From Petrotoga sp. 9PWA.NaAc.5.4 (GTDB taxonomy: Bacteria; Thermotogota; Thermotogae; Petrotogales; Petrotogaceae): a DNA stretch of 64,000 bases. Made by a program: the position numbers and the translations under genes. The stretch lies in contig NZ_AZRK01000022.1 in NCBI RefSeq assembly GCF_002895485.1, positions 1-64,000 of the forward strand, written 5' to 3'. Numbering within the stretch: the first letter of the stretch is position 1; every line of letters begins with the position of its first letter. Positions 4,261 to 59,170 of the stretch are shown here, piece after piece. The notes below the pieces were generated by a model. That model saw only the letters and a list, made by a program, of their open reading frames with translations, ran no database searches and was not told where the DNA came from.

Positions 4261-5037
4261 TTACCAAACTTTCAAATTTTTTACAAAACTTCTTAATTCT
4301 TCGAACATTTTATCTTTGTTATCTTTATTTTTATCAATAAGTTTTATAATAGCACTTCCAACAATGATTCCGTCTACATAGTCGATTAAAGATTTAACTT
4401 TTTCTTGATTGTCTATTCCAAAACCGATAGCTATTGGTATATTAATATATTTTCTGATTTTTTGAATATAATCGTTTATGTATTCAACAGGTCCTTTACT
4501 GTCTCCTGTAACTCCCATAAGGGAAACACAATACAAAAATCCCGTTGCATAATTTGAAAGCTTTTTTAATCTTTCTTCAGATGTATTCGGAGCAACCAAC
4601 AATATTCCGTCTATGTCATTTTCTCTTAACTTTTCATAGAATTCTGGTTCTTCATCAAACGGTAAATCCGGTATTATTACTCCCGAAACGTTGGTACGCT
4701 TACAATCTTCCATAAATTTGTCAATTCCATAATTTAAGATAGAATTATAATATCCCATCAACACAATTGGTGTATTGATTCTTCCTTTTAAACTTTCTAA
4801 TGTATTAAATATCTTAGAGAGATTTACTCCTTTTTTTATTGCCATTTGGCTAGCTTCCTGAATTACTGGACCGTCAGCCAATGGATCAGAAAAAGGAATT
4901 CCAATCTCTATTATGTCAACTCCAGCTTTATTAAGTTCAGATATTATTTCTTTTGTGGTTTCTAAATCCGGATTACCGGCAGTTATGTATGTTATAAAAG
5001 CTTTTTTATTATTAAAAATTTGTTGAATTTTAAGCAT
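4261..5037 (-). CDS. trpA: Tryptophan synthase alpha subunit
   Basis: Cleaves indole-3-glycerol phosphate to indole and glyceraldehyde 3-phosphate and passes indole to TrpB. The 258-residue TIM barrel has both catalytic acids: Glu in VDIIEIGIPFSDP and Asp in the following PLADGP. The phosphate-binding end is IGFGIDN...IIVGSAII. It is the last gene of the trp operon. Two copies of the interspersed leader element separate it from trpB, an unusual gap of over 500 bases between genes whose products form one complex. AGGAGG precedes the ATG. Confidence 0.97.
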   Translation of the reverse strand: MLKIQQIFNNKKAFITYITAGNPDLETTKEIISELNKAGVDIIEIGIPFSDPLADGPVIQEASQMAIKKGVNLSKIFNTLESLKGRINTPIVLMGYYNSILNYGIDKFMEDCKRTNVSGVIIPDLPFDEEPEFYEKLRENDIDGILLVAPNTSEERLKKLSNYATGFLYCVSLMGVTGDSKGPVEYINDYIQKIRKYINIPIAIGFGIDNQEKVKSLIDYVDGIIVGSAIIKLIDKNKDNKDKMFEELRSFVKNLKVW

Positions 5038-5045
5038 TTTAAACC

Positions 5046-5560
5046 TCCTAATAATAAATTATATGCTCACTTTAAAAATTCTGAAATTCTTATTATGTGT
5101 ATGGTTTAGCGTTAATTTTTTTACAAAATACCTCCCCACTTCTAACCATTACTAATTCTTAATTTCTTTAGTTTTTCGGTACTTGTACCGAAGGAAGGGG
5201 GAGAGGGCTCCGCCCTGGACCCATTTTAAACTCAAAACTTATTTTCTGAAAAATTATCATTTCTAAAGTCCCTAATAAATTATATGCTCACTTTAGAAAT
5301 TCCAAAATCCTTATTATCTGTATATTTCAGCGTTGATTTTTTTACAAAATACCTCCCCACTTCTAACCATTACTAATTCTTAATTTCTTTAGTTTTTCGG
5401 TACTTGTACCGAAGGAAGGGGGAGAGGGCTCCGCCCTGGACCCATTTTAAATTCAAAACTTATTTTCTGAAAAATTATCATTTCTAAAGTTCCTAATAAA
5501 TTATATGCTCACTTTAGAAATTCCAAAATTCTAATTTGTAAGAAGGGCTTAATTTGGTCT
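5046..5560 (-). repeat. Interspersed leader element, two full tandem copies between trpB and trpA
   Basis: Two copies repeat with a period of 221 bases, anchored at TATATGCTCACTTTAGAAATT (about 5060, 5281 and 5502). In the trpA direction each unit has the left end ACTTTAGAAATGATAA, then GGGTCCAGGGCGGAGCCCTC, the palindrome CTTCGGTACAAGTACCGAA, then AGAAGTGGGGAGGTATTTTG and the right end TTTCTAAAGTGAGC. These copies define the full-length unit. No coding capacity is seen. Confidence 0.9.
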
Positions 5561-5573
5561 AAAGTTTTTTAAA

Positions 5574-6749
5574 TTATTTTTTCCTATTTAGGTTTCTGTA
5601 TGAATCCACATCTTTGTCCCCTCTACCTGAGAGATTAACTACGATTATTTTATTTTTATCTAATTGAGGAGCTAATTTCATAGTATATGCAAGTGCGTGA
5701 GCACTTTCAAATGCTGGTATTATGCCTTCAAGCCTTGTTAGTAGTTCAAAAGCTTCTATTGCTTCTTCATCGGTAACTGCCTTGTATATAGCTCTTTTTA
5801 TTTCATGCAAGTAACTGTGTTCCGGACCTACTCCTGGATAGTCTAATCCAGCTGAAATTGAATAAGCAAGTTGAATTTGACCATCTACATCTTGAAGAAC
5901 ATAAGATTTGCTTCCGTGAAGTACGCCAATTCTTCCTTTAGTCAAAGAAGCAGCATGATATTCTGTTTTTAAGCCCTTTCCAGCGGCTTCCACTCCAATT
6001 AATTTTACTTCCTGATTTTCAACAAATGGATAAAATATTCCCATGGCGTTACTGCCACCACCGACGCAGGCTATTATATAATCTGGTAGTCTCCCTTCTT
6101 TTTGAATAATTTGTTTTTTTGTTTCATCACCGATTATTCTTTGGAAATTTCTAACTATCATAGGATAAGGATGAGGGCCAACAACGGAACCAATAACATA
6201 ATGAGTATCTTCAACATTTGTTACCCAATCTCTAATAGCTTCATTTATAGCTTCTTTCAATGTTTGGCTTCCACTATAAACGGGTACAACTTTTGCTCCC
6301 AACATTTCCATTTTATAAACATTTAAAGCCTGTCTTTTTATATCTTCTGCTCCCATATATACAATACACTCTAATCCAAATCTTGCCGCTGCAGTTGCAG
6401 TTGCAACACCATGTTGGCCCGCCCCCGTTTCTGCAATAATCCTTTTTTTACCCATTTTCTTAGCGAGTAAAACTTGTCCTAAAGCATTATTGATCTTGTG
6501 AGCACCTGTGTGGTTTAGATCTTCTCTCTTTAAATATATTTTTGCGCCGTTTAAATATTCAGCCAATCTATCGGCATAGTAAAGCGGCGTTGGTCTTCCA
6601 CTATAATCAGCCAACAATCCGTTGAACTCTTTTAGGAAATCAGGATTTTTTGAATATTTTTCATATGCTTCCTCTAACTCTTCCAAAGCTGGGATTAGTG
6701 TTTCTGGAACGAAACGACCACCATATTGCCCATAATAACCTTTTTTCAT
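5574..6749 (-). CDS. trpB: Tryptophan synthase beta subunit
   Basis: A PLP enzyme that condenses indole with serine to tryptophan. At 391 residues it is the standard length for the TrpB1 type, which starts with [15 protein letters not shown]. The PLP lysine is in [11 protein letters not shown], the phosphate-binding loop is GGGSNAMG and the indole-site Glu is in [11 protein letters not shown]. The ATG at 6749 is chosen over the TTG one codon earlier because AGGAGG is well spaced to it. It follows trpF by 18 bases, so the two are probably translated from one message. Confidence 0.97.
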
Positions 6750-6767
6750 CAATTTTCCTCCTCACTT

Positions 6768-7388
6768 TTAAGTATTTTTGATAATTTCTAATGTCTTTTT
6801 TATTAAATTTATATTTTTTTTACCAGGACTTTCTTCAACTTTACTATTTAAATCTATTGCAACTGGGTTTAATTCATTTAATGCTTGAATTACATTATCA
6901 GGACCTATACCTCCTGCCAATATAAAGGGCTTATTGATGTTTAATTTTTTGAGAATGTTCCAATCAAAAGTTTTGCCTGTACCTCCTAATTTTTGTTCAA
7001 CCTTTGTATCAAAAAGAAAGTAATCTACAATCTCTTTTAATTCTTCAACATTTAAGTTGTTTGTTGACGTTTCTTTACTGATTTTTATAGCTTTTATTGT
7101 TTTTAATTTGCATCTTTTTATTAAATTTAAATCTTCATTGCCATGAAATTGTACATAATCGAATGCTTTAGAATTTTCTATTGATTCCAATTCCAAAATT
7201 GAAGGATTAACTACAACAGCAACTCTATTTATGAAAGGAGGTAGAAAAGATGAAATTTTTATAGCTTCTGAAAGCTTTATTTTTCTTGGACTATCTGAAA
7301 GTATAAAACCTAAAGCATGTATATTCAATGAGGAAATTTCCAAAGCATCTTTCAAATTAGTTATTCCACAAATTTTTATTCTAACCAT
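6768..7388 (-). CDS. trpF: Phosphoribosylanthranilate isomerase
   Basis: Converts N-(5'-phosphoribosyl)anthranilate to CdRP by Amadori rearrangement. The 206-residue TIM barrel opens with IKICGITN, whose Cys is the catalytic base, and carries the acid in FDTKVEQKLGGTGKTFDW plus the phosphate loop ILAGGIGPDNV. The ATG overlaps the last codons of trpC by 8 bases, which implies translational coupling. It is a separate protein, not the TrpC-TrpF fusion of enterobacteria. Confidence 0.96.
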   Translation of the reverse strand: MVRIKICGITNLKDALEISSLNIHALGFILSDSPRKIKLSEAIKISSFLPPFINRVAVVVNPSILELESIENSKAFDYVQFHGNEDLNLIKRCKLKTIKAIKISKETSTNNLNVEELKEIVDYFLFDTKVEQKLGGTGKTFDWNILKKLNINKPFILAGGIGPDNVIQALNELNPVAIDLNSKVEESPGKKNINLIKKTLEIIKNT

Positions 7389-8145
7389 TTTTTATAAACT
7401 CCTTCTCAGGGAAAAGTTCTTTTATTTTTTCTGAAGGATCTTTCTCTCTCATAAGTGCTTCTCCTATCAAAACTCCATCCACTCCCAAATTTTTAAGATA
7501 AATTATATCATTTCTATCTTTTATCCCACTTTCAGATACTATGTAAAATTCATTTCTTTTTTTTAATTTTTCTAATTTATTTAAAATTTTTTCTGTAGTT
7601 GTAATATCGACAGTAAAGTTTTCTAAATTTCTATTATTTATACCAAGAATTTCTGTTTTTGTATCTAATATCTTTTCAAGATCTTCAAAATCATGGATTT
7701 CTACTATAGCCTCTAATCTTAATTCATGAGATATTTCTAAAAAAATTTCTATATCTTTTTTACTTAAAATTTTAGCGATTAACAAAACTACATCGGCTCC
7801 AAGTAAAAAACTTTCATATATTTGTATAGGATTTATAATAAAATCCTTTCTGAGAATTGGAAGAGTAGTTTTATTTCTCAAATTTTTAAGAATTTCCGGA
7901 CTTCCTTGAAAATATTTTTTATCAGTAAGTATCGAAATAGCGTCTGCTCCGCCCTCTATATATGCATTCAATTGTTTGCAGGGATCAAAATCTTTTGAGA
8001 TAATACCTTTACTTGGTGATGATTTTTTAATTTCTGCAATTAACGTTAGATTTTTCTTTTTCAAAGATTCTTTTAAGGAATTTCTTTTTTCGAATAATTT
8101 TGAGATTTCTTCTTCTTTTGTTTTTATAATATTTTCTAAATACAT
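7381..8145 (-). CDS. trpC: Indole-3-glycerol phosphate synthase
   Basis: Closes the indole ring from CdRP. The 254-residue TIM barrel has the catalytic Lys in LIAEIKKSSPSKG, the Lys/Glu pair in LRKDFI and EAIVEIHD, the substrate Asn in LGINNRNL and SESGI...GVLIGEALM at the end. AAAGGAGG precedes the ATG. Four copies of the interspersed leader element separate it from trpD upstream. It overlaps trpF downstream. Confidence 0.96.
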   Translation of the reverse strand: MYLENIIKTKEEEISKLFEKRNSLKESLKKKNLTLIAEIKKSSPSKGIISKDFDPCKQLNAYIEGGADAISILTDKKYFQGSPEILKNLRNKTTLPILRKDFIINPIQIYESFLLGADVVLLIAKILSKKDIEIFLEISHELRLEAIVEIHDFEDLEKILDTKTEILGINNRNLENFTVDITTTEKILNKLEKLKKRNEFYIVSESGIKDRNDIIYLKNLGVDGVLIGEALMREKDPSEKIKELFPEKEFIKNG

Positions 8146-8154
8146 AAAAATTCC

Positions 8155-8725
8155 TCCTTTAATTAACTAATAGACTCATTTTAAAAATTCTAAACTTCAT
8201 ATTTTATAAATATTTCAACTTTTAACTTTTTACAAAATACCTCCGCACTTCTAGTCCTTACTAATTTTTTTATCTTTTTCTGTAGTTGTAGCGAAAGAGA
8301 GGGGAGGGCTCCGCCCTGAACCCATTTTAAATTCAAAAGCTTATTTTCTAAAAATTATTGTTTCTAAAGTCCACATTTAATTTCTTTAATCTTTTGATGG
8401 TTGTAGCCAAGGGAAGGGGGAGAGGGCTCCGCCCTGGACCCGTTATAAATTCAAAAGCTTATTTTCTAAAAATTATTGTTTCTAAAGTCCACATTTAAAT
8501 TTTTTAATCTTTTGATACTTGTAGCCAAGGGAAGGGGGAGAGGGCTCCGCCCTGAACCCATTTTAAATTTAAAAGCTTATTTTCTAAAAATTATTGTTTC
8601 TAAAGTCCACATTTAATTTCTCTAATCTTTTGATACTTGTAGCCAAGGGAAGGTGGAGAGGGCTTCGCCCTGAACCCATTTTAAATTCAAAAGCTTATTT
8701 TTAGAAAATCTTCATTTCTAAAGTA
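8155..8725 (-). repeat. Interspersed leader element, four tandem units between trpD and trpC
   Basis: Four GC-hairpin units point toward trpC, with GGGCTCCGCCCTG or its GGGCTTCGCCCTG variant near 8307, 8426, 8544 and 8661. The three trpD-proximal units repeat with an exact 118-base period (TCCACATTTAA at about 8370, 8488 and 8606). Only the trpC-proximal unit keeps the long right half. The repeats sit in the middle of the trp operon. Confidence 0.9.
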
Positions 8726-8726
8726 C

Positions 8727-9764
8727 CTAATTAGCAAATTCTTTTTGTAAATATAAAAAATTTGTAAAATCAATCATTTCTTGAAGTTTATTTAATGCTT
8801 TTTTGCTATCTATAATTTCTTGAGCCAATTTTATACCTTCTTGAAATGTATTTACTTTGTTAACAACAATAAAAGCTGCTGCTGAGTTTAACAAAACCAC
8901 ATCTCTTTTTGGACCTTTCTCACCATTAAATATGCTTAAAATTATATTTTTGTTTTCTTCTGGACTTCCTCCTCTAATTTCCTCTAAACTGTATTTTCTT
9001 AGTCCAACATCTTCAGGAGATATTTCAAATTCTTCTATCTCTTCTCCCTTTAGAAACGCTACTTTGTTTTTACCGGCTAAAGAAAATTCGTCTATTCCTC
9101 CAGCTCCATGAACAACCAAAGCTCTTTTAACCCCTAAATTTTTGAGAACTTTTGCAATTGGATAGACGAGGTTAACGTCGTATACGCCCATTAATTGGTA
9201 CTTTACTTTTGCAGGGTTAGTTAAAGGTCCTAATAGATTAAAAATAGTTCTGATTCCTAACTCTCTTCTTACAGTAGAGGCATATTTTGTAGCTTTGTGA
9301 AAATTTGGTGCAAATAAAAAGGCGATATTTATTTCTTTTAGACATTCCTCAATTAACTCATTAGAGAGAGATATATTTATTCCTAATGATTCTAAAACAT
9401 CTGCGCTACCGCTTTTACTTGAAACTGATCTGTTACCATGTTTGGCAACAGGAACTCCGGAAGCTGCTAATACGAAACCAACAGCAGTAGAAATATTAAA
9501 AGTTCCTTTAGCGTCTCCTCCTGTTCCACATGTATCAATAAGATTATCATTTATCAAGTTAAAAGATAGAGCTTTTTCTCTCATAACTCTGGCACTTGCA
9601 GTTATTTCTTCGATGGTTTCTCCTTTCATGTTTAATCCAACTAAAAATCCTGCTAATTGACTGTTAGTTACTTTTCCTTCCATAATCATTCTCATAGCAT
9701 CTTCCATTTCTTCTAAACTCAAATTTTGCTTTTTTATAATTTTTTGTAGATAGTAATTAAACAT
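8727..9764 (-). CDS. trpD: Anthranilate phosphoribosyltransferase
   Basis: Transfers phosphoribose from PRPP to anthranilate. The 345-residue enzyme of the glycosyltransferase family 3 fold shows the PRPP loop DTCGTGGDAKGTFNIST, the anthranilate region HGNRSVSSKSGSADVLE, NLLGPLTNPA and VVHGAGGIDE. It is not fused to TrpG, unlike the TrpGD fusion known from Thermotoga maritima. Its ATG overlaps the trpG end by 8 bases. Confidence 0.96.
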   Translation of the reverse strand: MFNYYLQKIIKKQNLSLEEMEDAMRMIMEGKVTNSQLAGFLVGLNMKGETIEEITASARVMREKALSFNLINDNLIDTCGTGGDAKGTFNISTAVGFVLAASGVPVAKHGNRSVSSKSGSADVLESLGINISLSNELIEECLKEINIAFLFAPNFHKATKYASTVRRELGIRTIFNLLGPLTNPAKVKYQLMGVYDVNLVYPIAKVLKNLGVKRALVVHGAGGIDEFSLAGKNKVAFLKGEEIEEFEISPEDVGLRKYSLEEIRGGSPEENKNIILSIFNGEKGPKRDVVLLNSAAAFIVVNKVNTFQEGIKLAQEIIDSKKALNKLQEMIDFTNFLYLQKEFAN

Positions 9765-10341
9765 AGTTCACACTCCTTTTTATATTAAAAAAATTTTCAA
9801 ATAATTTCAAACCAACAGTAGTAAGTATTGACTCTGGATGAAATTGAAAACCATAAATAGGAAATAATTTATGTTTTATAGCCATAATTTCATCATTTTT
9901 TGTAAGAGCTAAAATCTTTAAGTCAAAGGGAAATTTTTCATGAGAAACTATCAAAGAATGATATCTTGTGGCTATAAATGGATTTTCGATATCTTTAAAA
10001 ATATCATCATCTTCATTAAAAAAGATTTCCGCTGTTTTGCCATGATATATTTCTTTAGCTCTAACTACCTTGCTGCCAAAAGTAGCAGCTATACATTGAT
10101 GCCCTAAACATATTCCTAATATGGGTATTTTTTCTTTAAAATACTCAATAGATTTCATCGAAATTCCTGCATCATATGGCGTTCCAGGTCCGGGAGATAT
10201 TACTATGTGAGAAGGATTCAGAGCTTCTATTTTTTTAAGCGTTAATTTATCGTTTCTAAAAACACAAACTTCATCAAATTGGCTTATATACTGATATATG
10301 TTGTAAGTAAATGAATCATAATTATCTATTAACAAGATCAT
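9757..10341 (-). CDS. trpG: Anthranilate synthase glutamine amidotransferase subunit
   Basis: A class I glutamine amidotransferase of 194 residues that supplies ammonia to TrpE. It opens with ILLIDNYDSFTYNIYQY. The nucleophile Cys is in ILGICLGHQCIA, the His-Glu pair is in YGFQFHPESILT, and the oxyanion segment is ISPGPGTP. It lies 34 bases after trpE with an AAAAGGGGGG ribosome binding site and overlaps trpD downstream. It could also serve PabB if one exists elsewhere, but the operon context favours TrpG. Confidence 0.94.
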   Translation of the reverse strand: MILLIDNYDSFTYNIYQYISQFDEVCVFRNDKLTLKKIEALNPSHIVISPGPGTPYDAGISMKSIEYFKEKIPILGICLGHQCIAATFGSKVVRAKEIYHGKTAEIFFNEDDDIFKDIENPFIATRYHSLIVSHEKFPFDLKILALTKNDEIMAIKHKLFPIYGFQFHPESILTTVGLKLFENFFNIKRSVNYV

Positions 10342-10375
10342 TGAGTTACCCCCCTTTTAGAAATTTTTATTTATA

Positions 10376-11899
10376 TCAAAAATTATTAAAAGCCTCTTCT
10401 GTAATTCCTATAGCTTTAAATAATGCTTTTGCTTTGTTAAGTGTTTCATAGTATTCTTTTTCAGGATCAGAATAAGAAACTATTCCTGCGCCAGCTTGAA
10501 TGATCGCCTTATTTTTTTTACATACGATAGTTCTTATAGCAATACTTGTATCCAAATTTCCATTGTGATCAACATAACCAATAGCTCCAGCATATATCTC
10601 TCTTGGCTCGTCTTCCAATTCATTGATTATTTCTATCGCACGTATTTTTGGAGCTCCTGAGACAGTACCGGCTGGAAAAACTCTTTTTAATACATCCAAT
10701 GAACTAATGGTTTCTTTTTTTATTCCTTCTACTTGGGAATAAATATGCATAACATGTGAGTACTTTTCTATGCCAAACAACTTAGTTACTTTGACACTTT
10801 TTTCTATGCATACCCTTCCTAAATCATTCCTTGCCAAATCAACTAACATAATATGTTCAGCCTTTTCTTTTTCATCATTCAAGAGTTCTTTTTCTACTTG
10901 AAGATCTTTTTCCAAATTTTTATTTCGTGCTTTAGTTCCGGCAAGAGGTCTTGTAATAACTTTGTTTTGTTCAACTTTTACAAGCATTTCAGGAGAGGTT
11001 CCAAAGATTTGAACTTCAGGAGTATTTATATAAAACATGTAGGGTGATGGGTTCATTATTCTTAATGCTTTATATATTTCAAAAGAATTTGAAGTTAATT
11101 CGATAGAAAATTTTTGAGATAAAACTATTTGAAAAGCATCCCCAGAGTTAATATAATCTTTTGCTTTGCATACTTTATCTAAGAATTCATTTTTTTTAGT
11201 ATGAAAAATAAGGTTTTCAACTGAGGTATAATTTGAAGAATTGATAAATATAAAATTCGAATCTTTTTCTTTTTCAAAAGAATCAAGTAATAATTTAATA
11301 TTCTTTTCCATTTGAGTTATTTCAAAATTTGCTTCTAACAATTCCTTTTGAAAATTTTTGTCTTTAGTTAAATAAACACAATTAACAACATGAATTAATC
11401 TTTCACTATGATCAATAATTAAAGAAACTTTTGGAAGAATCATGGTTGTTAGAGGTAGATCACCATATTTTATTTTTTTACCTTTATTTTTATGGTAGAT
11501 ATCTTCCCAAAAGTCAATCATTTCATATCCAAAATACCCAACAAAACTACAATAAAAGTCAGGGATGTTCGGTAAAATAGGTCCCTTTATATAATTCAAT
11601 TCTTTTTTTAAGTATTCTATTGGTTCCTGATCTATAAGATATTGATTACTGGAAGTATGAGCTTGGATTATAAGGGAAAAATGATCATATTTGTCTTTTT
11701 CAAATTTAATAATTTTTTCTGGAATAATCCCAATAAAAGAAAATATTTTTTCTTTAAACCTTATATTTTCAAGAATAAAAGAATATTCAAACATTTGCGC
11801 TAGGCCTTCATAAAGAAGAGCAGGATCTATGGCTTTGTATTTAATAGTTTTAATAATAGGTAAAACATTGTATTTGTTATAATTTGTAATAGTTTTCAT
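10376..11899 (-). CDS. trpE: Anthranilate synthase component I
   Basis: Makes anthranilate from chorismate with ammonia from TrpG. The 507-residue protein has the N-terminal regulatory lobe and the C-terminal chorismate-binding domain, with DAFQIVLSQKFSI, GTSPEMLV, RPLAGTKARNK, DLARNDLGRV, FPAGTVSGAPKIRA and QAGAGIVSYSDPEKEY. The segment FILENIRF near residue 40 is a candidate for the Trp feedback-site motif (LLES in enterobacteria). It is the first structural gene of the operon, downstream of a Trp attenuator and one leader-element copy. Confidence 0.96.
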   Translation of the reverse strand: MKTITNYNKYNVLPIIKTIKYKAIDPALLYEGLAQMFEYSFILENIRFKEKIFSFIGIIPEKIIKFEKDKYDHFSLIIQAHTSSNQYLIDQEPIEYLKKELNYIKGPILPNIPDFYCSFVGYFGYEMIDFWEDIYHKNKGKKIKYGDLPLTTMILPKVSLIIDHSERLIHVVNCVYLTKDKNFQKELLEANFEITQMEKNIKLLLDSFEKEKDSNFIFINSSNYTSVENLIFHTKKNEFLDKVCKAKDYINSGDAFQIVLSQKFSIELTSNSFEIYKALRIMNPSPYMFYINTPEVQIFGTSPEMLVKVEQNKVITRPLAGTKARNKNLEKDLQVEKELLNDEKEKAEHIMLVDLARNDLGRVCIEKSVKVTKLFGIEKYSHVMHIYSQVEGIKKETISSLDVLKRVFPAGTVSGAPKIRAIEIINELEDEPREIYAGAIGYVDHNGNLDTSIAIRTIVCKKNKAIIQAGAGIVSYSDPEKEYYETLNKAKALFKAIGITEEAFNNF

Positions 11900-11924: not shown

Positions 11925-12165
11925 ATACCTACTTTAGAAATTCCAAAACCTAAGTTTTACCAATCTTTTAGTTTTAAATTTTTTTCAAAAATACCTCCAT
12001 AGCTCTAATCTTCGCTAATTCTTAATTCTTTTAACTTTTTCGGTACTTGTACCGAAGGAGGGGAGGGGGGCTCCGCCCTGAACCCACTTTAAATTCAAAT
12101 GCTTATTTTCTGAAAAATTATCTTTTCTAAAGTCTCTAATAAAGTTTTACTCAATTTAGAAATTC
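11925..12165 (-). repeat. Interspersed leader element between the trp attenuator and trpE
   Basis: One copy points toward trpE, with the right end at TACTTTAGAAATTCC near 11930, the palindrome CGGTACTTGTACCG near 12040, GGGCTCCGCCCTG near 12068 and the left end at TTTTCTAAAGTC near 12130. A second right-end fragment (CTCAATTTAGAAATTC) lies near 12153. It sits after the attenuator, so it is part of the read-through mRNA. Confidence 0.85.
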
Positions 12166-13489: not shown

Positions 13490-13905
13490 AGTAAATTATT
13501 TATTAGAAACTTTAGAAATGGGAGTTTTCCAAAAATGAGAATTTGAATTTATAACGGGTCCAGGGTGAAGCCCTCTCTTCTTCGGTACAAGTACCCAAAA
13601 AGTTAAAAAAATTCAGAATTAGTGAGGATTAGAAGCGGGAAGGTATTTTGTAAAAAATCAATTCTAAAACATATATATAATAAGGATTTTGGGATTTCTA
13701 AAGTAAGTATTAGAAATAAATTAGGTACTTTAGAAATGATAATTTTCAGAAAATAAGCTTTTGAATTTATAACGGATCCAGGGCGGAGCCCCCTCTCCTT
13801 CGGTACAAGTATCGAAGAAGTTAAAGAAATAGAGAATTGGTCAAAATTAGAATTCAAAACATTTAATAGGAGTTTCATATTTTCTAAAGATATTATATTA
13901 TTTAT
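13490..13905 (+). repeat. Interspersed leader element, two copies before the nucleoside kinase
   Basis: Copies begin near 13500 (ACTTTAGAAATGGGAG) and 13726 (ACTTTAGAAATGATAA), a period of about 225. The first hairpin is AGGGT-GAA-GCCCT, where a G-U pair keeps the stem; the second is AGGGC-GGA-GCCCC. Both point toward the downstream plus-strand kinase. No promoter was recognised between the tRNA terminator and the copies. Confidence 0.88.
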
Positions 13906-13934: not shown

Positions 13935-15596
13935 ATGAAATATCAGTTAAAAGATGTTGAAACGGGAGAAATTTATGAAGCCGATGAAAATACAAAGTAT
14001 ATAGAATTAGCAAAAGAATATGAAAAGAGAACAGGTAAGATAGTTTTATATGTAAAAGTAAATAATGATATAAAAGAACTTTTTGCCAAAGTTTCAAAAA
14101 ACGGAAATATTCAGTTTTGTGATATTCAAACGCCTGATGGGGTTAGAATATATAGAAGAGGTTTGTTTTTTATATTTTATATAGCTTTGAAAGAAATTAA
14201 TCCTAAAGACAAATTATACGTTAATAATACTTTAAGTGATGCAATGTACTGTGAATTAAAATTAGGGGAACCTTCTGAGGAGTATTTGAGTTGTTTGGAA
14301 AATAAAATGCGGGATATTGTGGAACAAAATATTGTTTTTGAAAAGAAAACCATTGATAAATTTGATGCGATAGAAATGTTTAAAAGAATTGGAGAAGAAG
14401 ATAAGGCTTTACTCTTTAAATATAGAAAAAAAAGCACAGTTAATATATACTTTGCAGGGAAATATTTTAATTATTTTTATGGATATTTACCATACTCAAC
14501 AGGTTATTTAGAAAAATTCAAATTAAAAAAAGTTGAAAAAGGTTTTGTCATTCTTCATCCTACAGAAAAATCTCCCAATGAAGTTCCCGAATATATACAT
14601 TCTCCAAAGTTGTTTGCTACATTCGAAGAATATAAAAACTGGCTTGATATAATGGACATAGAAACAGTTGGTGAACTTAATTTACTTATTTCTAAGGGTC
14701 CTGAAAGTGTGAGAGAAATTATAAGAGTTTCAGAAGCTTTACATGAAAAAAAGTACGCTCAAATTGCTGATGAAATAGTAAAAAGGGAAAAGATAAGATT
14801 AATAACTATAGCGGGACCTTCATCTTCAGGTAAAACAACGAGTGCTAAAAGAGTAGCTCTTCAATTAAAGGTTCATGGATTAAAACCACTTTCTATCTCT
14901 TTAGACGATTTTTTCCTTGAAAGAGAAAAAACCCCTCGTGATGAGGATGGCAATTATGATTTTGAATCAATAAATGCGTTAGATTTAGACTTGTTTAATA
15001 GAATTATGAAAGATTTAATAGAGGGAAAGGAAGTAATATTACCCAAGTTTGATTTTAGAACAGGCACAAGATCATGGCAAGATAAACCACTAAGGATTGA
15101 CCAAAATCATCCAGTTATTATTGAAGGAATTCATGGATTAAATGAAGCTCTTACTTCGGCTATTCCTAAGGATAAAAAATTTAAAATTTATGTGAGCTCA
15201 TTAACTCAAATGAACTTAGATAGTATGGATAGAATTCCAACGACTGATACAAGGCTTATTAGAAGAATAGTTAGAGATTATCGTTTTAGAGGATATTCTG
15301 CAGAAAGTACTTTAAAAATGTGGCCTTCTGTTGTAAAAGGTGAACATAGAAATATATTTCCTTATCAAGAAGAAGCTGATGTTATGTTCAATTCACATTT
15401 GGTATATGAATTAGCAGTTTTAAAAAATTTTGCGGAACCGCTATTATTATCAATTGATAACTCTATTCCTGAATATACTGAAGCTAAAAGGTTATTGAGA
15501 TTTTTAGATTATTTTCTACCTATTACGGAATTAGACGAAATCCCAAGAACTTCAATAATAAGAGAATTTATTGGTAATAGTTCTTTCAAATATTAG
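13935..15596 (+). CDS. Nucleoside (uridine-type) kinase with TGS/SAD-like N-terminal region
   Basis: The 553-residue protein has two parts. Residues 1 to about 250 resemble the TGS and second additional domain of threonyl-tRNA synthetase (LKDVETGEIYEADENTKYIELA, IHSPKLFATFEEYKNWLDIM). From about 285 it is a phosphoribulokinase/uridine kinase domain with P-loop ITIAGPSSSGKTT, the DDFF motif in SISLDDFFLEREKTP, and LPKFDFRTG. This arrangement is known as a nucleoside kinase in Thermotogota and Firmicutes. It probably phosphorylates uridine or cytidine for pyrimidine salvage. GAAAGGAG precedes the ATG. Confidence 0.88.
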   Translation: MKYQLKDVETGEIYEADENTKYIELAKEYEKRTGKIVLYVKVNNDIKELFAKVSKNGNIQFCDIQTPDGVRIYRRGLFFIFYIALKEINPKDKLYVNNTLSDAMYCELKLGEPSEEYLSCLENKMRDIVEQNIVFEKKTIDKFDAIEMFKRIGEEDKALLFKYRKKSTVNIYFAGKYFNYFYGYLPYSTGYLEKFKLKKVEKGFVILHPTEKSPNEVPEYIHSPKLFATFEEYKNWLDIMDIETVGELNLLISKGPESVREIIRVSEALHEKKYAQIADEIVKREKIRLITIAGPSSSGKTTSAKRVALQLKVHGLKPLSISLDDFFLEREKTPRDEDGNYDFESINALDLDLFNRIMKDLIEGKEVILPKFDFRTGTRSWQDKPLRIDQNHPVIIEGIHGLNEALTSAIPKDKKFKIYVSSLTQMNLDSMDRIPTTDTRLIRRIVRDYRFRGYSAESTLKMWPSVVKGEHRNIFPYQEEADVMFNSHLVYELAVLKNFAEPLLLSIDNSIPEYTEAKRLLRFLDYFLPITELDEIPRTSIIREFIGNSSFKY

Positions 15597-18265: not shown

Positions 18266-20019
18266 TATCTACTCACCTCTTCAAAGGAACCTGAGAATTT
18301 AAAATTAAAATAACTAAATACGGCTATGATGGCAAATATTAAAATGGAAATAGCTGATGCAAATCCAAAATCTTGTCCTTGCGAGCCTTCAAATGCAAGT
18401 TTATAGACATAAGAAATTAATATATCTGTTGATCCTGCAGGTGTATTTGTTCCAACCATAGCAGGGCCTCCTCCAGTTAAAAGATATATGTTTGTAAAGT
18501 TATTAAAGTTGAAAGCAAAACTCATTACAAGTAAAGGAGCAACTGCTACCATCAGCAAAGGAAAAGTAATTTGTCTAAATTGTTTCCATCTTGATGCTCC
18601 ATCTATAACCGCAGCTTCATAAAGCTCACTTGGTATACTTTGTAAAGAACCAAGCGTTATTGTCATCATATATGGAAATCCTAACCATGTATTAGCTATC
18701 AACACCGAAACTTTTGCCCAAAATGGATCATTTAGCCATTTAACAGGACTTATTCCCAAATTTCCGAGTATAAATCTATTTATTATTCCATAGGTTTCGT
18801 TGAAAAAACCATTTCTCCACACTAATACCGATATAAAAGCAGGAATTGCCCAAGGAATTATCAATAATGTCCTGTATATAATCCTTCCTTTAAATTTTGT
18901 ATCATTTAATAACATAGCAAATATTAACCCTATAATAAATGTAAATAGTACACTTAAGGCTGCATATGCAAAAGTCCAACCAAATATTTTAAAAAATGGT
19001 CCTGAAATTCTTGGATCAGTAATAATCTTTGAAAAATTTTCTCCCCCCACATAACTTTTGTACCCTATAAGCCTAACTAGCTTACCATTCTCATTGTAAT
19101 CCCAAAAAGCCGAATCTCTTTCTATAAGTTCTTTATTAGTTAAAGTGTTTACAACTACAGTTTTGTATATTTCTCTTTCTCCATTTATTATAACTTTTAC
19201 AGCAGTATCATAAACTCTATACGCTTCCCCAAATTTTCTAAAAACAGAAGCACTTGAAAGTCTAAAGTTTTGATCTCCAAGTTTCAAATTTAATGATTTT
19301 ATATAATTTTGTCTTAAAACTGAGTTGTAGAATGCAGAATTCGTAAAGGTAGTGGAATCTGTAGGAGAATAAAAATAGGTGTATCTAACATCTCCATTTT
19401 TTTCGATTGCGATTATATGATCATACCCTTTATCACTTGCACTCTCTGCAGGCCTTATTATTTCATAAATATTTCCGTCAATTTCTGATATATTGTTATT
19501 TACTACAAATAATTCTGATTCAGTATATATTAAGTTTCCAGTGGAATCATACTCCAAAATAGTTGGTTTTTCAGCTAAATACATTTCATCTTCATCGTAT
19601 AATAAAAGTAAAAAGTCTTCAGTAGGTCTATATTGTGCATCGTATCTCACAAATACTTTAAAGTCATATGTTTTTGCATCTTCTGGTTCAAAATAATAAG
19701 TAGGATCTTTTAATAAAGTATCTATAGCGTTAGTTCTGGTAAATAAATGTCCAGTTCCATAGTTCGTAAAAGCGGTATCTATTGTGTAATATATAGGATA
19801 TATTGTCAAAATAAATAGAAAAAATAAAGCAGGTAAGGTGTATCTATAAGGATAAGCTTTTTTAGAAAATATAGCCCAGTCTGTTAAGACAAGAAAAGCA
19901 CTTATTACTATACCTAATCCATAGTTTGCAAGAAGGAATAGGACGATAATAGCCCATACTAAAAGGGCATTCAATACGCTTATAATAGTCCATATTAAAA
20001 AGATTTTAACACCTTTCAT
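18265..20019 (-). CDS. malF: Maltose-type ABC transporter permease MalF
   Basis: The partner permease of MalG, 584 residues from the ATG at 20019. That start is chosen because AAGGAGGATTGAA lies directly before it, whereas an upstream in-frame start lies inside repeat sequence. Three N-terminal membrane segments are followed by a large extracytoplasmic loop (about residues 84-340, the P2-type loop of MalF that contacts MalE) and then the permease core with EAA loop YEAAVIDGASRWKQFRQITFP. No MalK ATPase gene is in the window, so it must be supplied from elsewhere. Confidence 0.93.
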   Translation of the reverse strand: MKGVKIFLIWTIISVLNALLVWAIIVLFLLANYGLGIVISAFLVLTDWAIFSKKAYPYRYTLPALFFLFILTIYPIYYTIDTAFTNYGTGHLFTRTNAIDTLLKDPTYYFEPEDAKTYDFKVFVRYDAQYRPTEDFLLLLYDEDEMYLAEKPTILEYDSTGNLIYTESELFVVNNNISEIDGNIYEIIRPAESASDKGYDHIIAIEKNGDVRYTYFYSPTDSTTFTNSAFYNSVLRQNYIKSLNLKLGDQNFRLSSASVFRKFGEAYRVYDTAVKVIINGEREIYKTVVVNTLTNKELIERDSAFWDYNENGKLVRLIGYKSYVGGENFSKIITDPRISGPFFKIFGWTFAYAALSVLFTFIIGLIFAMLLNDTKFKGRIIYRTLLIIPWAIPAFISVLVWRNGFFNETYGIINRFILGNLGISPVKWLNDPFWAKVSVLIANTWLGFPYMMTITLGSLQSIPSELYEAAVIDGASRWKQFRQITFPLLMVAVAPLLVMSFAFNFNNFTNIYLLTGGGPAMVGTNTPAGSTDILISYVYKLAFEGSQGQDFGFASAISILIFAIIAVFSYFNFKFSGSFEEVSR

Positions 20020-20039
20020 TTCAATCCTCCTTGAGTTTG

Positions 20040-20420
20040 ATAATATACTCACTTTAGAAATTCCAAAACCTAAGTTTTGCCAATATTTTAGTTTTAATTT
20101 TTTTCAAAAATACCCCTATAGTTCTAATCTTCACTGATTCTTAATTCTTTTAACTTTTTAAAATATATCTTCACAATTCTAACTTTTAACCCGTTCTCTA
20201 TTTCTTTAACCTCATAGGTACGTATAGCGAAGGAGAAAGGGTGAGATCGATCCAGACTCTTTTAGAAGCTTATTTTTTAAAAATCTCTATTTCTAAAGTT
20301 TCTATCTAATTCTCACAAAATAATGATTTCTTTAACCTCTTCGTACGAATAAAGAAGAGGAGGAGGATTTCATCCTTTATTACTATAAAACCAAAAATTT
20401 ATTTTCGAAAAACTTTCTTT
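20040..20420 (-). repeat. Interspersed leader element, two degenerate copies before malF
   Basis: The right end ACTTTAGAAATTCC near 20048 is intact. The GC hairpins are eroded (GTGAGATCGATCCAG near 20243, GGATTTCATCC near 20366), but flanking blocks such as TTTAACCTC..GTACG and TTCTAAAG near 20300 remain. The orientation is toward malF. These copies look older than those in the trp operon. Confidence 0.65.
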
Positions 20421-25584: not shown

Positions 25585-25760
25585 TTTACTGTCTTTAGAA
25601 ATTATAAAATAGCTCTATAACTATAATCTTTATTGACTATGAATTTTTTAACTTTTCGATACCTGTACCTAAAAGTGGTGGAGAGCACTTCACCTTGAAT
25701 TCACTTTAAATACAAAAACTTATTTTTGGAAAGATCTCTGTTTCTAAAGTCCTTCTAAGA
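25585..25760 (-). repeat. Interspersed leader element, one eroded copy before the foldase gene
   Basis: The right end CTGTCTTTAGAAATTATAAA (about 25588) and left end GTTTCTAAAGTCC (about 25740) bracket an eroded GC hairpin (GAGCACTTCACCTTG). It points toward the foldase gene. The rest of the 448-base gap to 26008 is AT-rich with one promoter. Confidence 0.7.
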
Positions 25761-30614: not shown

Positions 30615-31001
30615 TTAATAACCAAAATCAGGAATTTGTCCCAAATACTTTTGCGAAATTTCGTTTGTTTTGCTTTCTTTCATATCTTGAACCTTTTGAA
30701 TGACTTCATTTGTAGCCGCAATTATTAAATCTTTAATTGTATCAAAGTCTTCTTCTTGAATCTCTTCAGATAATATAATATCTTTGATCTTCATGTTTCC
30801 AGTAGCAATAACCTTCAAAACTCCTCCACCAGCCGACGCTTCCAATTCCATTTGGGAAAGTTCTTCATCAAGTTTATTTAGTTCTTCTTCCATTTGTGCT
30901 TGGGCTTTTTGAGCTTCGATTAATAGTTTATTCATATCTCCTTTGTTAGAAGGTTTCTTTGCAAGAGATCTTCCACCTAAACTTTTTATTTTTTTAGCCA
31001 T
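30615..31001 (-). CDS. YbaB/EbfC-family nucleoid-associated protein
   Basis: A small DNA-binding protein of 128 residues. The family core is MNKLLIEAQKAQAQMEEELNKLDEELSQMELEASAGGGVLKV, followed by DIILSEEIQEEDFDTIKDLIIAATNEVIQKV. These proteins are usually encoded near recR or dnaX, but neither is here. The ATG at 31001 has an ideal GAGGAGG site; an upstream in-frame start lies in repeat-derived sequence. Four tandem leader elements precede it. Confidence 0.88.
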   Translation of the reverse strand: MAKKIKSLGGRSLAKKPSNKGDMNKLLIEAQKAQAQMEEELNKLDEELSQMELEASAGGGVLKVIATGNMKIKDIILSEEIQEEDFDTIKDLIIAATNEVIQKVQDMKESKTNEISQKYLGQIPDFGY

Positions 31002-31039: not shown

Positions 31040-31650
31040 TTTATACCCACTTTAGAAATTACAAAATCCTATATATATATTTTAAAATTAACTTTTTTTA
31101 CAAAATACCTCTTCATTTCTAATTCTTACTAATCGTCTACCTTTTAAACTTTTTCACTGCGTGTAATGAAAGAGAGTGGGGCTCCGCCCTGAACCCATTA
31201 TAAATTCAAAAACTTAATTTTTAGAAAATTCTCATTTCTAAAGGTTATATCTAATCCTTACTAATCGTCTACTTTTTAAACTTTTTCGCTACGTGTAATG
31301 AAAGAGAGTGGGGCTCCGCCCTGAACCCATTATAAATTCAAAAACTTAATTTTTAGAAAATTCTCATTTCTAAAGGTTATATCTAATCCTTACTAATCGT
31401 CTACTTTTTAAACTTTTTCACTACGTGTAATGAAAGAGAGTGGGGCTTCGCCCTGAACCCATTATAAATTCAAAAGCTTAATTTTTAGAAAATTCTCATT
31501 TCTAAAGGTTATATCTAATCCTTACTAATCGTCTACTTTTTAAACTTTTTCGCTACGTGTAGTGAAGGAGAGTGGGGCTCCGCCCTGAACCCATTATAAA
31601 TTCAAAAACTTAATTTTTAGAAAATTCTCATTTCTGAAGGTTATATATAG
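31040..31650 (-). repeat. Interspersed leader element, four tandem units with exact 132-bp period before ybaB
   Basis: The block CTAATCGTCTAC ends at 31140, 31272, 31404 and 31536, an exact 132-base period. Each unit carries GGGGCTCCGCCCTGAACCCA (one has GGGCTTCGCCC) and ends TTCTCATTTCTAAAGG. The ybaB-proximal unit keeps the right half (about 31040-31130). All point toward ybaB. The units are nearly identical, which suggests recent tandem amplification. The rest of the gap to 31843 is AT-rich with a TATAAT near 31770. Confidence 0.92.
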
Positions 31651-32609: not shown

Positions 32610-32700
32610 GTAACATTAGGGAGTTTAGAAATGAATACTTTTGAAAAATAAGCTTTTGAATTTAAAGTGGGTACAGAGTTGAATCTTTAGTGAGTATAAA
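32610..32700 (+). repeat. Interspersed leader element, shortened copy before efp
   Basis: GAGTTTAGAAATGAATACTTTTG, AATAAGCTTTTGAATTTAAAG and GGGTACAGAGTTGAATC keep the left half. The GC hairpin is destroyed, and GAGTATAAAATC follows as a right-end trace. It points toward efp. Confidence 0.65.
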
Positions 32701-34793: not shown

Positions 34794-35255
34794 TTATTTA
34801 ACCTCCTCTTTAAGTTTTACATTATGCAGATTATTTAACATTTTGTCTAAAACATTTTCAAAAACTTTCAATTCTTCTTCAGAAATACCATATGTCATAA
34901 TTTCTTCCCATTTTATATTCAATTTTTCTATTTCTTTTTCTATTTTACGTGCCTTATCCGTCAGATAAATTCTGTTGATTCTATGATCTTTTGTATCAAC
35001 TTTTTTTATTACATAATTGTTATTTATCAAAACATTTAAGGCTCTGGCGGTAGTACCTTTGTCTATGTTAAGCTCTTCACTTAAGTTTTCTTGGCTTATT
35101 CCATCGCCATTCTTTAACAAATACATAAAAAAAAGGAATTGACCTTTGCCAATATTGTAGCTTTCAAGTTCTTTCTTCATAAATGATCCGGTACTTCTAA
35201 ACAAACAAGATATTTTTCTTAAAATTGTTGCATATTCCTCTGATTTATTTGCCAT
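34794..35255 (-). CDS. MarR-family transcriptional regulator
   Basis: A winged-helix repressor of 153 residues. The DNA-binding region is YLLKNGDGISQENLSEELNIDKGTTARALNVLINNNYVIKK with wing DTKDHRINRIYLTDKARKI, flanked by helical dimerisation segments. It probably controls itself and the MATE pump downstream. A long inverted repeat overlapping a promoter about 470 bases upstream is its likely operator. The ATG at 35255 has GGAGG upstream. Confidence 0.92.
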   Translation of the reverse strand: MANKSEEYATILRKISCLFRSTGSFMKKELESYNIGKGQFLFFMYLLKNGDGISQENLSEELNIDKGTTARALNVLINNNYVIKKVDTKDHRINRIYLTDKARKIEKEIEKLNIKWEEIMTYGISEEELKVFENVLDKMLNNLHNVKLKEEVK

Positions 35256-35274
35256 ATTTGAAATTTACCTCCTC

Positions 35275-35545
35275 AATTTTAATCCTCACTAATTCTTAAT
35301 TTTTTAGCTTCTTTGATACTTGTAGCCAAGGAAGTGGGAGGAGGGCTCCGCCCTAAACCCACTTTAAATTCAAAAGCTTATTTTCTAAAATCTTTATTTA
35401 TAAAATGCTTATGCAATTCTAATTTTGACAAATTAACTATTTTTTAGCTTCTTTGGTACTCTTAGCCAAGGAAGAGAAAGGCTCCGCCCTAAACCCACTT
35501 TAAATTCAAATTCTATTTTTAGAAACGCTTCATTTTTAAAGTTCT
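35275..35545 (-). repeat. Interspersed leader element, two copies before marR
   Basis: GGGCTCCGCCCTAAACCC occurs near 35345 and AGGCTCCGCCCTAAACCC near 35480. Between and beyond are TTTAAATTCAAAAGCTTATTTTCTAAAATC and CATTTTTAAAGTTC. Both point toward marR and lie between its probable promoter/operator and the gene. Confidence 0.85.
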
Positions 35546-35715
35546 AAAAATGTTTACTGTCTTTATAAATTCTAAAATTTGTTTTTGTATATGCTTTAGA
35601 TTTAAACCCTTTATAAAATACGTAAACAATCATAATTGGAGACTCCAAACTGATTGTCTTTACATATTACTTTCATAATAAGCTTGGGATAGTACTTATC
35701 TTAATATTATAATAA

Positions 35716-39614: not shown

Positions 39615-39835
39615 ATTTTTTAGTTACTGTCTTTAGAAATTCCAAAATCCTTATTATACGTATATTTTAATGGTGATTCTTTTACAAAATACCTTAACGC
39701 TTTTAGTCTTTACTAATTACCGATTTCTTTACTTTTTCGATACTTGTAGCCAAGGAAGTGGGAGGAGGGCTCCGCCCTGGACCCGTTTTAAATTCAAATG
39801 CTTTTTTTCAAAATCTTTATTTCTAAAGTACCTAT
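39615..39835 (-). repeat. Interspersed leader element, one full copy between lepA and the membrane protein gene
   Basis: The right end CTGTCTTTAGAAATTCCAAAATCC (about 39627) and left end TTTATTTCTAAAGTACC (about 39820) bound one full unit with GATACTTGTAGCCAAGG and GGGCTCCGCCCTGGACCC. The left end reaches the lepA stop codon region. It points toward the gene at 39598. Confidence 0.9.
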
Positions 39836-41658: not shown

Positions 41659-41921
41659 TAAAAATGACACCTCCTACAATAAAATCGCTTTACCCACTTT
41701 AAAAATTCTAATAAACGCTATTCATGATTATAAATTCTTCTAATTATAAATTACTCTAATACATTGGGAATTACACATAAAGATAAAATTCAAATAACTT
41801 CAAATATTATATCATAAATAATAAAATATAATAAAGTTAAATCTGGTAAGATTGAAGTATTTTATGTATGAAAAAATGAAATTAAAATGTAAAGATGCAA
41901 AATACTTTTATTAAATATTTT

Positions 41922-42019: not shown

Positions 42020-42700
42020 ATATTTTAGAAACGTTAGAAATAAAGTTTTTTGAATTTATACCAGGTTCAGGGCGGAGCCCTCCCCTCTTTTCTTGTATAC
42101 ACGCAGTTAAGAAGCCAAAAAGTATACAATTGATAAAAATTTAGATATACACTTTAGAAATAAAGTTTTTGAATTTATACCAGGTTCAGGGCGGAGCCCT
42201 CCCCTCTTTTCTTGTATACACGCAGTTAAGAATTTAAAAAATATACAATTGATAAAAATTAGATATACACTTTAGAAATAAAGTTTTTGAATTTATACCA
42301 GGTCCAGGGCGGAGCCCTCCCCTCTTTTCTTGTGTACACGCAGTTAAGAAGCCAAAAAGTATACAATTGATAAAAATTAGATATACACATTAGAAATAAA
42401 GTTTTTGAATTTATACCAGGTCCAGGGCGGAGCCCTCCCCTCTCTTCTTGTATGCACGCAGTTAAGAATTTAAAAAATATACAATTGATAAAAATTAGAT
42501 ATACACTTTAGAAATAAAGTTTTTGAATTTATACCAGGTCCAGGGCGGAGCCCTTCCCCTCTCTTTCATTACATGTAGCGAAAAAGTTAAAAAATTAGAA
42601 ATTAATGTGGATTAGAACTGAGGAGGTATTTTGTAAAAAAATCAACACTAAAACATATTAAAATACGAATTTTTGAATTTTTAAAGTTATTATATAAATG
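42020..42700 (+). repeat. Interspersed leader element, five tandem units with 118-bp period
   Basis: Units start with ACTTTAGAAATAAAG or a variant near 42033, 42151, 42269, 42387 and 42505, an exact 118-base period after the first. Each carries CAGGGCGGAGCCCT. Only the last unit keeps the long right half ending TTTTTAAAGTTATTATATAAATG before the dehydrogenase gene. The linker GTATACAATTGATAAAAATT is shared by units 1-4. A lone minus-strand right end (ACCCACTTTAAAAATTC, about 41695) sits before lepA. Confidence 0.92.
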
Positions 42701-45974: not shown

Positions 45975-46765
45975 AAAAATAGTTAATTTGTCAAAATTAG
46001 AATTGCATAAGCATTTTATAAATAAAGATTTTAGAAAGCAAGCTTTTGAATTTAAAGTGAGTTTAGTATTAACTGTATAGGTACTTTAGAAATGAGAAGT
46101 TTTTAAAAATGAGCATTTGAATTTAAGAAGGGTCCAGGGCGAAGCCCTCTACTCTTCCTTTGGTGCGAGTACCAAAGAAGTTAAAAAAATAGTTAATTTG
46201 TTAAAATTAGAATTACATAAGCATTTTATAAATAAAGATTTTAGAAAACAAGCTTTTGAATTTAAAATGGGTTTAGTATTAACTGTATAGGTACTTTAAA
46301 AATACGCTTTTGAATTTAAAACGGGTTCAGGGCGAAGCCCTCTTCCCCCTTACTTGGAAATGAGAAGTTTTTAAAAATGAGCATTTGAATTTAAAACGGG
46401 TCCAGGGCAGAGCCCTCCTCCTTCTTACTTGGCTACAAGTATCGACGAAGCTAAAAAAATAGTTAATTTGTTAAAATTAGAATTGCATAAGCATTTTATA
46501 AATAAAGATTTTAGAAAGCAAGCTTTTGAATTTAAGTGGGTTTAGTATTAACTGTATAGGTACTTTAGAAATGAGAAGTTTTTAAAAATGAGCTTTTGAA
46601 TTTAAGAAGGGTCCAGGGCACGGCCCTCCTCTCTCCTTAGCTACACGTAGCAAAAAAGCTAAAAAAATTTATATTCTGTGAAGATTATAGTTGAGGAAAT
46701 ATTTTTGAAAAAACTAAGATTCAAAACATTTATAAAATCGGAGTTTCATAATTTCCAAAGTAAAT
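45975..46765 (+). repeat. Interspersed leader element, complex array before tsaE
   Basis: At least four GC-hairpin units (about 46130, 46325, 46402 and 46613) alternate with a second block reading TTTAGTATTAACTGTATAGGTACTTTAGAAATGAG at about 46045, 46272 and 46540. The hairpin forms are AGGGC-GAA-GCCCT, AGGGC-AGA-GCCCT and AGGGC-ACG-GCCCT. The second stem varies as CTTTGGTGC/GTACCAAAG and GCTAC/GTAGC. All point toward tsaE. The array fills the 860-base gap; no gene is seen. Confidence 0.88.
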
Positions 46766-49304: not shown

Positions 49305-49374
49305 TATTATCTGATTAAAGTTATTTTAATTTTAGTCGATACTTATATTGAGTAAAAATTAAATGATAGACATT

Positions 49375-49575
49375 TTAGAAACGAAGAATTTTCTAAAAAC
49401 GAAGTTTTATTTTTATAAGGGTCCATATCATAGCCCCTCCCTCTTCTTTTAGCTGAACGCAGCGAAGAAGTTAAAAAAATCATATTTATTAAGAATTAGA
49501 GTTATTAAGTAATTTTTATAAAATTTAAGCTTAAAATAACAATAAAATCTAATTTTTTGAAATTCCTAAATGAGT
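49375..49575 (+). repeat. Interspersed leader element, one diverged copy before flaG
   Basis: ACATTTTAGAAACGAAG, then GGGTCCATATCATAGCCC in place of the usual GC hairpin, GCTGAACGCAGC (a 4-bp stem kept by different bases), and the right end TTTGAAATTCCTAAATGAGTAAA. It points toward flaG. It fills most of the 300-base gap. Confidence 0.75.
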
Positions 49576-51734: not shown

Positions 51735-51890
51735 CTTTCTCGTTATTCACTTTAAAAATCATAAAACTCATTTTCTATAAATGTTTTTAACGTTTAATCT
51801 TTTTAAAAATATCTTCTCAACTCTAATCCTTGCAAAATACAATTTTTTTTAATTTTTTAGGTATTTTTACCTGTCCGTTTAATTTGAATA
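51735..51890 (-). repeat. Interspersed leader element, right-end part only
   Basis: TATTCACTTTAAAAATCATAAAA, then TTTTTAAAAATATCTTCTCAACTCTAATCCTTGCAAAA matches the right half of the unit. The GC hairpin is absent. It lies between two minus-strand genes and points toward the isochorismatase gene. Confidence 0.65.
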
Positions 51891-55773: not shown

Positions 55774-55794
55774 AAAAAACTCCTTCTTAAATCC

Positions 55795-55845
55795 ATCATA
55801 AATTCAAAACTTTGTTTTTAGAAAATTTTTAATTTCTAAAGCTTC
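55795..55845 (-). repeat. Left-end remnant of the interspersed leader element before the CPBP gene
   Basis: ATAAATTCAAAACTTTGTTTTTAGAAAATTTTTAATTTCTAAAG matches the left end in minus orientation, pointing toward the CPBP gene. The plus-oriented array begins just beyond. Confidence 0.6.
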
Positions 55846-55959: not shown

Positions 55960-56585
55960 GTTCTCTAAAATAATCTTTTGAATTTAAAGTGGGTTTAGTA
56001 TTAACTGTATAGGTGCTTTAGAAATGAGAAATTTTTAAAAATGAGCTTTTGAATTTAAAGTGGGTCCAGGGCGGAGCCCCCCTCCCCCTTACTTTGCTAC
56101 GAGTACCAAAGAAGCTAAAAAATAGTTAATTTGTCAAAATTAGAATTACATAAGCATTTTATAAATAAAGATTTTTAGAAAACAAGCTTTTGAATTTAAA
56201 GTGGGTTTAGTATTAACTGTATAGGTACTTTAGAAATGAGAAATTTTTAAAAATGAGCATTTGAATTTAAAGTGGGTCCAGGGCGGAGCCCTCCTCCCTC
56301 CTTAGATATACGTACCTAAGAACTTAAAAATATAGGTAATTTATCAAAATTAGAATTGCATAAGCATTTTATAAATAAGATTTTAGAAAATAATCTTTTG
56401 AATTTAAAGTGGGTTTAGTATTAACTGTATAGGTATTTTAGAAATGAGAAGTTTTTAAAAATGAGCTTTTGAATTTAAAGTGGGTCCAGGGCGGAGCCCC
56501 CTTCTCTCCTTCCATATGCTTATCGAAAAAGATAAACTCTAAATTATCTCTATAAAATGTGAATTTTATAATTTTTAAAGCAGAT
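55960..56585 (+). repeat. Interspersed leader element, three GC-hairpin units before the amidohydrolase gene
   Basis: CAGGGCGGAGCCC occurs near 56068, 56279 and 56488, spaced about 210 bases. The block TTTAAAGTGGGTTTAGTATTAACTGTATAGGT recurs near 55985, 56198 and 56403, as in the tsaE array. All point toward the amidohydrolase gene. The last right end is TTTATAATTTTTAAAGCAGATG. Confidence 0.9.
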
Positions 56586-59019: not shown

Positions 59020-59170
59020 TAAATCTTTTGTTTTAAAAATGAAAAACAAAGTACCGAAAAAGCTAAAAAATAGAGAACAGATCAAAATTACAATTATGAA
59101 GATATTTTATAAAAAGTTAAACATTAAACTATTGATAAAATATGAATTTTAGAATTTATAAAGTGAGTAA
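59020..59170 (+). repeat. Interspersed leader element, right half between tdh and kbl
   Basis: AAAGTACCGAAAAAGCTAAAAAATAGAG, then ATTTTATAAAAAGTTAAACATTAAA and TTTATAAAGTGAGTAAACG keep the right half in plus orientation, directly before the kbl ribosome binding site. The GC hairpin is missing. Confidence 0.65.

Follow-up and report, generated by a model that had tools for sequence, protein, structure and literature searches.

The 64-kb window analysed here (the whole stretch of 64,000 nucleotides from Petrotoga sp. 9PWA.NaAc.5.4) carries trp genes on the reverse strand at 4261-11899, and arrays of a repeated element lie before trpA, trpC and trpE; two of these arrays appear to be at junctions inside an operon. 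A repeat search recovered the tandem 221-bp units before trpA reported in the initial annotation (5052-5272 and 5273-5493, 95% identical). A profile built from the copies matched 5066-5271 and 5287-5491 within this tandem and detected the element at every other locus listed in that annotation (Table 1). The proposal of an interspersed family with MITE-like ends was therefore upheld, with the terminal sequences corrected: the unit is ~207 bp long, non-coding and bounded by the terminal inverted repeats TAGGKACTTTAGAAAT and ATTTCTAAAGTGAGTA. The supposed remnant at 41695 fell below the profile threshold and consists of a lone 3' terminal repeat, TACCCACTTTAAAAATTCTAA, which faces a Shine-Dalgarno (SD) motif. 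First-look candidates numbered 432 in the whole genome (2.22 Mb, 29% GC). At many loci tandem 5' sub-units, most commonly model positions 1-112 or 1-131, are followed by a full unit adjoining the gene, and short variants of ~85 bp have the same geometry relative to the SD as full elements. The repeats are short and non-coding, and have inverted-repeat ends, target-site duplications (TSDs) and ends shared with an autonomous insertion sequence (IS) of the same genome. By the features tested they are MITEs, non-autonomous small transposons.

Table 1. Element copies in the 64-kb window and the genes they precede (SD +n, position of the SD motif relative to the 3' end of the copy)
Position	Strand	Feature	Neighbouring gene	Target and spacing
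5038..5065	-	TSD ATATAATTTATT, then trpA SD TTAGGAGG	trpA	12-bp duplication; SD 2 nt beyond
5052..5493	-	two tandem full-length MITEs, plus 43-bp partial copy at 5494-5536	before trpA (4261-5037, -)	
8174..8726	-	three 1-112 sub-units and one full unit	faces SD of trpC (7381-8145, -)	SD +14
11927..12133	-	full MITE	before trpE (10376-11899, -)	11-bp TSD TAAAACTTTAT; SD 3 nt beyond
13509..13889	+	two MITE units	before ORF 13935-15596 (+)	
20047..20418	-	array of partial units	before ORF 18265-20052 (-)	SD +14
25602..25752	-	3'-truncated copy	before ORF 23895-25559 (-)	profile match
31045..31639	-	three 1-131 sub-units and one full unit	before YbaB-family gene (30615-31037, -)	
32622..32700	+	internally deleted short MITE (~85 bp)	before ORF 32732-33292 (+)	
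35255..35635	-	partial copies	before ORF 34794-35255 (-)	profile match
39626..39831	-	single full MITE	between ORF ending at 39832 (-) and ORF 39242-39598 (-)	perfect 11-bp TSD AACTAAAAAAT on both sides; SD 2 nt beyond
41690..41715	-	solitary 3' terminal repeat	faces SD of divergent gene 39832-41670 (-)	
42024..42689	+	array of five units	before ORF 42698-43687 (+)	SD +15
46081..46762	+	array	before tsaE (46831-47268, +)	3' end faces CGGAGG at standard spacing
49374..49575	+	full MITE	before ORF at 49604 (+)	SD +16
51747..51871	-	5'-truncated MITE	before ORF 51108-51716 (-)	SD +14
55780..55841	-	partial copy	before ORF 55087-55773 (-)	profile match
56014..56534	+	array of partial units	before ORF 56617-57774 (+)	profile match
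59049..59168	+	5'-truncated MITE	before ORF 59180-60373 (+)	SD +15

The called start of tsaE lies 65 nt from its array despite the standard spacing to CGGAGG. Elsewhere in the window, 15653-18265 (-) encodes an 870-aa protein in which a match to a MalG-like permease is confined to the last ~220 residues.

Orientation was tabulated in 1.26 Mb from two genera, comprising a discovery set of 464 kb (the window and 20 stretches), 400 kb of held-out sequence and 400 kb from the second genus. The window and 800 kb of stretches together cover 864 kb of the 2.22-Mb source genome, and genes were called by our own ORF/SD heuristic rather than taken from annotation. As the initial annotation had claimed, copies point the same way as the downstream gene: 170 arrays were sense and 4 antisense, one of the latter a gene-call error. 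The discovery set contributed 86 arrays (83 sense, 2 antisense, 1 undetermined), and the antisense call at window position 13509 is the gene-caller error, the gene starting 40 nt downstream. In the held-out set 63 of 65 arrays were sense; the second genus contained 26 arrays, of which all 24 that could be assigned were sense and two were undetermined. Equal sense and antisense counts, which would have told against the claim, were not found in the 1.26 Mb sampled, and random insertion is, as had been argued, unable to explain the one-way pattern. Only one gap between convergent genes held a copy. Copies stop 10-50 bases short of the ribosome-binding site, again as described, and the distance between 3' end and start codon is 25-34 nt in most. 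Of 79 codirectional arrays, 25 begin no more than 15 nt from the stop codon of the preceding gene; the one at 8174-8726 abuts the preceding ORF (8727-9764, -). Elements precede 129 of the 708 genes (~18%) in the sampled genome.

The position of the 3' end varied less relative to the SD than relative to the start codon (variance 1.5 versus 5.1). The position of the SD was nearly independent of SD-start spacing (correlations 0.11 and 0.17), and that of the start codon followed it (0.84 and 0.85). The anchor is thus the SD, not the start codon. An SD match of at least 5 bases was present at +11 to +18 of complete 3' ends in 60 of 68 cases in the discovery set, 42 of 49 in the held-out set and 17 of 20 in the second genus, against a background of 3.4-3.8% among intergenic positions and 7.5% among sense positions preceding genes. 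In a divergent Petrotoga-like family, all 11 intact 3' ends were at an SD. Occupancy was higher the longer the SD match, climbing from 2% to 39% (1/47, 7/127, 13/159, 35/164, 49/149 and 24/62 genes for matches of 0, 4, 5, 6, 7 and 8 bases), a trend possibly confounded with operon position and our own gene calls. AAGGAGG was occupied at 39% of gene SDs and at none of 46 coding sites, and none of 198 AGGAGG motifs in coding sequence was occupied. Coding insertions have probably been purged, which is the likely reason for this absence; a requirement for a translation-start context would also explain it. Among copies with a complete 3' end, about 12-15% have no strong SD where one would be expected. 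One MITE (L084:241-410) has a perfect 11-bp TSD and no SD-like motif nearby.

TSDs were sought by comparing both flanks of 85 copies or arrays, with a duplication score of at least 7 and permuted pairs as control. Duplications of 9-13 bp were found in 33 of the 85, compared to 1.28 expected from the permuted pairs (maximum 5.1), and in 31 of these 33 an SD-like motif followed 2-5 nt after the duplication, matching at least 5 bases in 29. Longer flanking duplications of ~16-19 bp, versus the usual 9-13, occur at L079:15389 and at window position 32622, the latter imperfect and ~19 bp long. Comparison of orthologous loci, a check suggested by the initial annotation, revealed empty and occupied alleles of one SD, that of a methylmalonyl-CoA-mutase-like small subunit gene, which is operon-internal with the mutase-subunit genes ~45 nt apart. 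This SD is empty in three Petrotoga-like species (G002, G014 and G018; ...TTTGCCATATCGAAAGGAGG), is preceded in G012 and G016 by a ~100-bp MITE with a 10-bp duplication (TTTGCCATTT/TTTACCATTT), and in G008 by an IS with a different duplication (TTACCTTCAAAA). A full MITE occupies it in G003, and G009 and G000 carry degenerate remains. The occupants differ, and therefore one SD has been targeted repeatedly and independently. Copies also lie at GGAGG or AGGAGG motifs other than gene SDs. Nested MITEs with new duplications have entered before the internal GGAGG of older copies (L046:2762 and L087:6725), and array junctions fall most often at this internal motif (47 of about 100), which explains many of the tandem arrays. 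At L149 two IS left ends are nested, the outer one inserted before the AGGAGG of the inner IS left arm.

A DDE transposase gene lies between isolated terminal repeats. No second match to its Pfam family was found in the genome, which also contains fragments of further IS copies. The 1.6-kb IS (L080:10415-12044, G000:C2) has the left end TAGTCACTTTAGAAATTCTAAAA, the right end TCATTTCTAAAGTGGGTA and the TSD ATATATATAA, and its left end lies at the AGGAGG SD of an apt-like gene. Alignment of the 3' ~90 bp of the MITE with the IS left end scored 59, against a maximum of 45 in 300 shuffles. The homologous part includes the GGAGG motif; the IS version of this motif forms the left arm of a 13-bp inverted repeat that surrounds the transposase SD. 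The MITE may be mobilised in trans by the transposase of this parent IS. The transposase contains DUF772 (37.5 bits) and DDE_Tnp_1 (34.3 bits), both above cut-off, an architecture in common with the IS1182 family. Its best NCBIfam model is IS1182 at 55.9 bits, far under the curated cut-off of 270, and IS5 was likewise not reached (40.8 bits versus 140); the parent IS is distantly related to IS1182/IS5. The predicted structure had a mean pLDDT of 43.5, too low for a structural search, and no match was found among PDB sequences. No relatives were found in viral contigs or phages, and those in plasmids are distant, the nearest in Alicyclobacillus; after it come annotated IS1182 proteins, which share 22-25% identity with the Alicyclobacillus relative.

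The left end of the IS, at which the transposase gene starts, had an SD beyond it, spaced as for the MITE, at 16 of 17 distinct sites in Petrotogaceae and one Fervidobacterium-like genome. An eighteenth site, of a 37% identical IS in another family, has AAAGGAGGT ~11 nt from the end, bringing the total to 17 of 18 across Thermotogota. At L193:2069-3397, on an Alicyclobacillus fastidiosus plasmid, the left end of a ~31% identical IS faces AAGGGTGA ~14 nt off, before an ATG, a suggestive hint that the SD rule extends to Bacillota. No SD was found at either end of four more distant IS1182-like relatives (two annotated as IS1182, two merely as transposase), so the rule is not generic. IS10 and IS50 are protected from external transcription. 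A comparable device may exist in the parent IS, where the transposase SD lies in a perfect 13-bp inverted repeat (ACCTCCTTACGAT/ATCGTAAGGAGGT; L080:11880-12044, -) with a left arm that overlaps the transposase -10 region; the repeat is predicted to block translation from read-through transcripts.

We consider SD-directed transposition the best reading of these data, with a probability of roughly 0.85. The transposase would insert ~12-14 bp upstream of an SD-type motif, AAGGAGG, duplicating 9-13 bp of target and always setting the IS-left end, which corresponds to the MITE 3' end, towards the motif. Direct recognition of the motif in DNA by the transposase is our inference. SDs would be abundant and tolerated sites, the motif standing before nearly every gene and coding sequence being spared, and the GGGGAGG of the MITE, inherited from the IS left end, would itself be a target and give rise to the many tandem arrays. 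Such targeting would explain why there are hundreds of copies, why they are in sense orientation at a fixed spacing and why they are nearly absent from convergent gaps. Of the two alternatives raised in the initial annotation, linked insertion and linked retention, the data favour the former.

If elements instead inserted widely and only sense copies providing a promoter or a useful 5' leader were kept, the sense bias and the 5' location would also be expected. Other MITEs (Correia) carry outward promoters (PMC10969869), and AT-rich -10-like hexamers occur here in the 3' part, ~33 and 21 nt before the end. However, a built-in outward sigma-70 promoter, assessed as canonical promoter pairs only, was depleted rather than enriched in the gene-proximal end (26 of 101 elements, compared to ~42 in shuffles and 42 of 81 element-free upstream regions). 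The TATAAT -10 box at the ends of the trpA copies is part of the duplicated target of that locus and not of the element. RNAalifold on 39 copies found no conserved RNA fold (-1.6 kcal/mol, negligible covariation), and Rfam gave no match in the element above the gathering score, the window yielding only three tRNAs. Selective retention is also at odds with spacing fixed to the SD within about a base, with copies at non-gene GGAGG and with the many arrays close to an upstream stop codon. In addition, the IS obeys the same orientation and spacing with its transposase gene running away from the SD-bearing neighbour, a rule that it would not need to share if a promoter or leader determined orientation. 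We therefore regard selective retention as unlikely. A selected leader function, as implied by the initial description of copies acting as gene leaders, is without support here, and the one-way orientation most likely results from target choice by the transposase rather than from a promoter or leader function. Copies are probably transcribed as part of mRNAs, and a copy joins the 5' leader anatomically wherever transcription starts upstream of it.

There is a small chance that the SD is found through nucleic-acid pairing or the translation machinery, by an anti-SD guide RNA or an mRNA/30S-coupled step, and not through protein-DNA recognition; if true, target choice would follow a new principle. 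It is very unlikely that the transpososome is drawn to a promoter, a melted start region or RNA polymerase, with the SD a mere neighbour: the targets are AT-rich and suitably placed for a -10 region or start site, but the anchor is the SD, many sites are operon-internal, as between the mutase-subunit genes, and nested insertions choose the internal GGAGG and not a start site. Spread of a common leader by recombination or gene conversion, or local tandem duplication, without transposition is highly improbable, for although locus-specific unit lengths in arrays indicate that local duplication also occurs, this explanation conflicts with the locus-specific TSDs (33 of 85 versus 1.3 expected), the orthologous site that is empty in some species and has a TSD where occupied, and the autonomous IS with the same ends.

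SD-directed transposition can be set beside several known systems. Like Correia, BOX, RUP and SPRITE elements, the repeats are short and non-coding with inverted-repeat ends, many copies and TSDs, and their modular sizes are BOX-like; canonical outward sigma-70 promoters of the Correia kind were not enriched in the gene-proximal end (26/101 versus ~42 in shuffles). Tn7 inserts directionally at attTn7, a conserved and tolerated place beside a gene. The element described here shares the directional insertion, but Tn7 uses one site (its target is mentioned in PMC10969869) and this family a generic short motif before most genes. IS1272 replaces palindromes and makes no TSD (PMC5678879), in contrast to the 9-13 bp TSDs of this family. 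In pneumococci, repeats and IS show enrichment in convergent gaps (PMC3049150), whereas here only one such gap held a copy and nearly all copies are set one way at an SD. No description of SD-targeted transposition, and so of this target rule, was found in the open-access literature searched.

If confirmed, this would be a transposon family with the ribosome-binding motif as its target and a one-orientation safe haven beside nearly every gene. Target recognition by a DUF772/DDE transposase would become directly testable, and the system is a possible tool for placing cargo immediately before genes. It would also show that target choice alone can give repeats a strong positional and strand bias, which calls for caution in assigning functions to leader repeats. 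The finding also raises the question of how the ~18% of genes with hundreds of extra bases before their SD are expressed.
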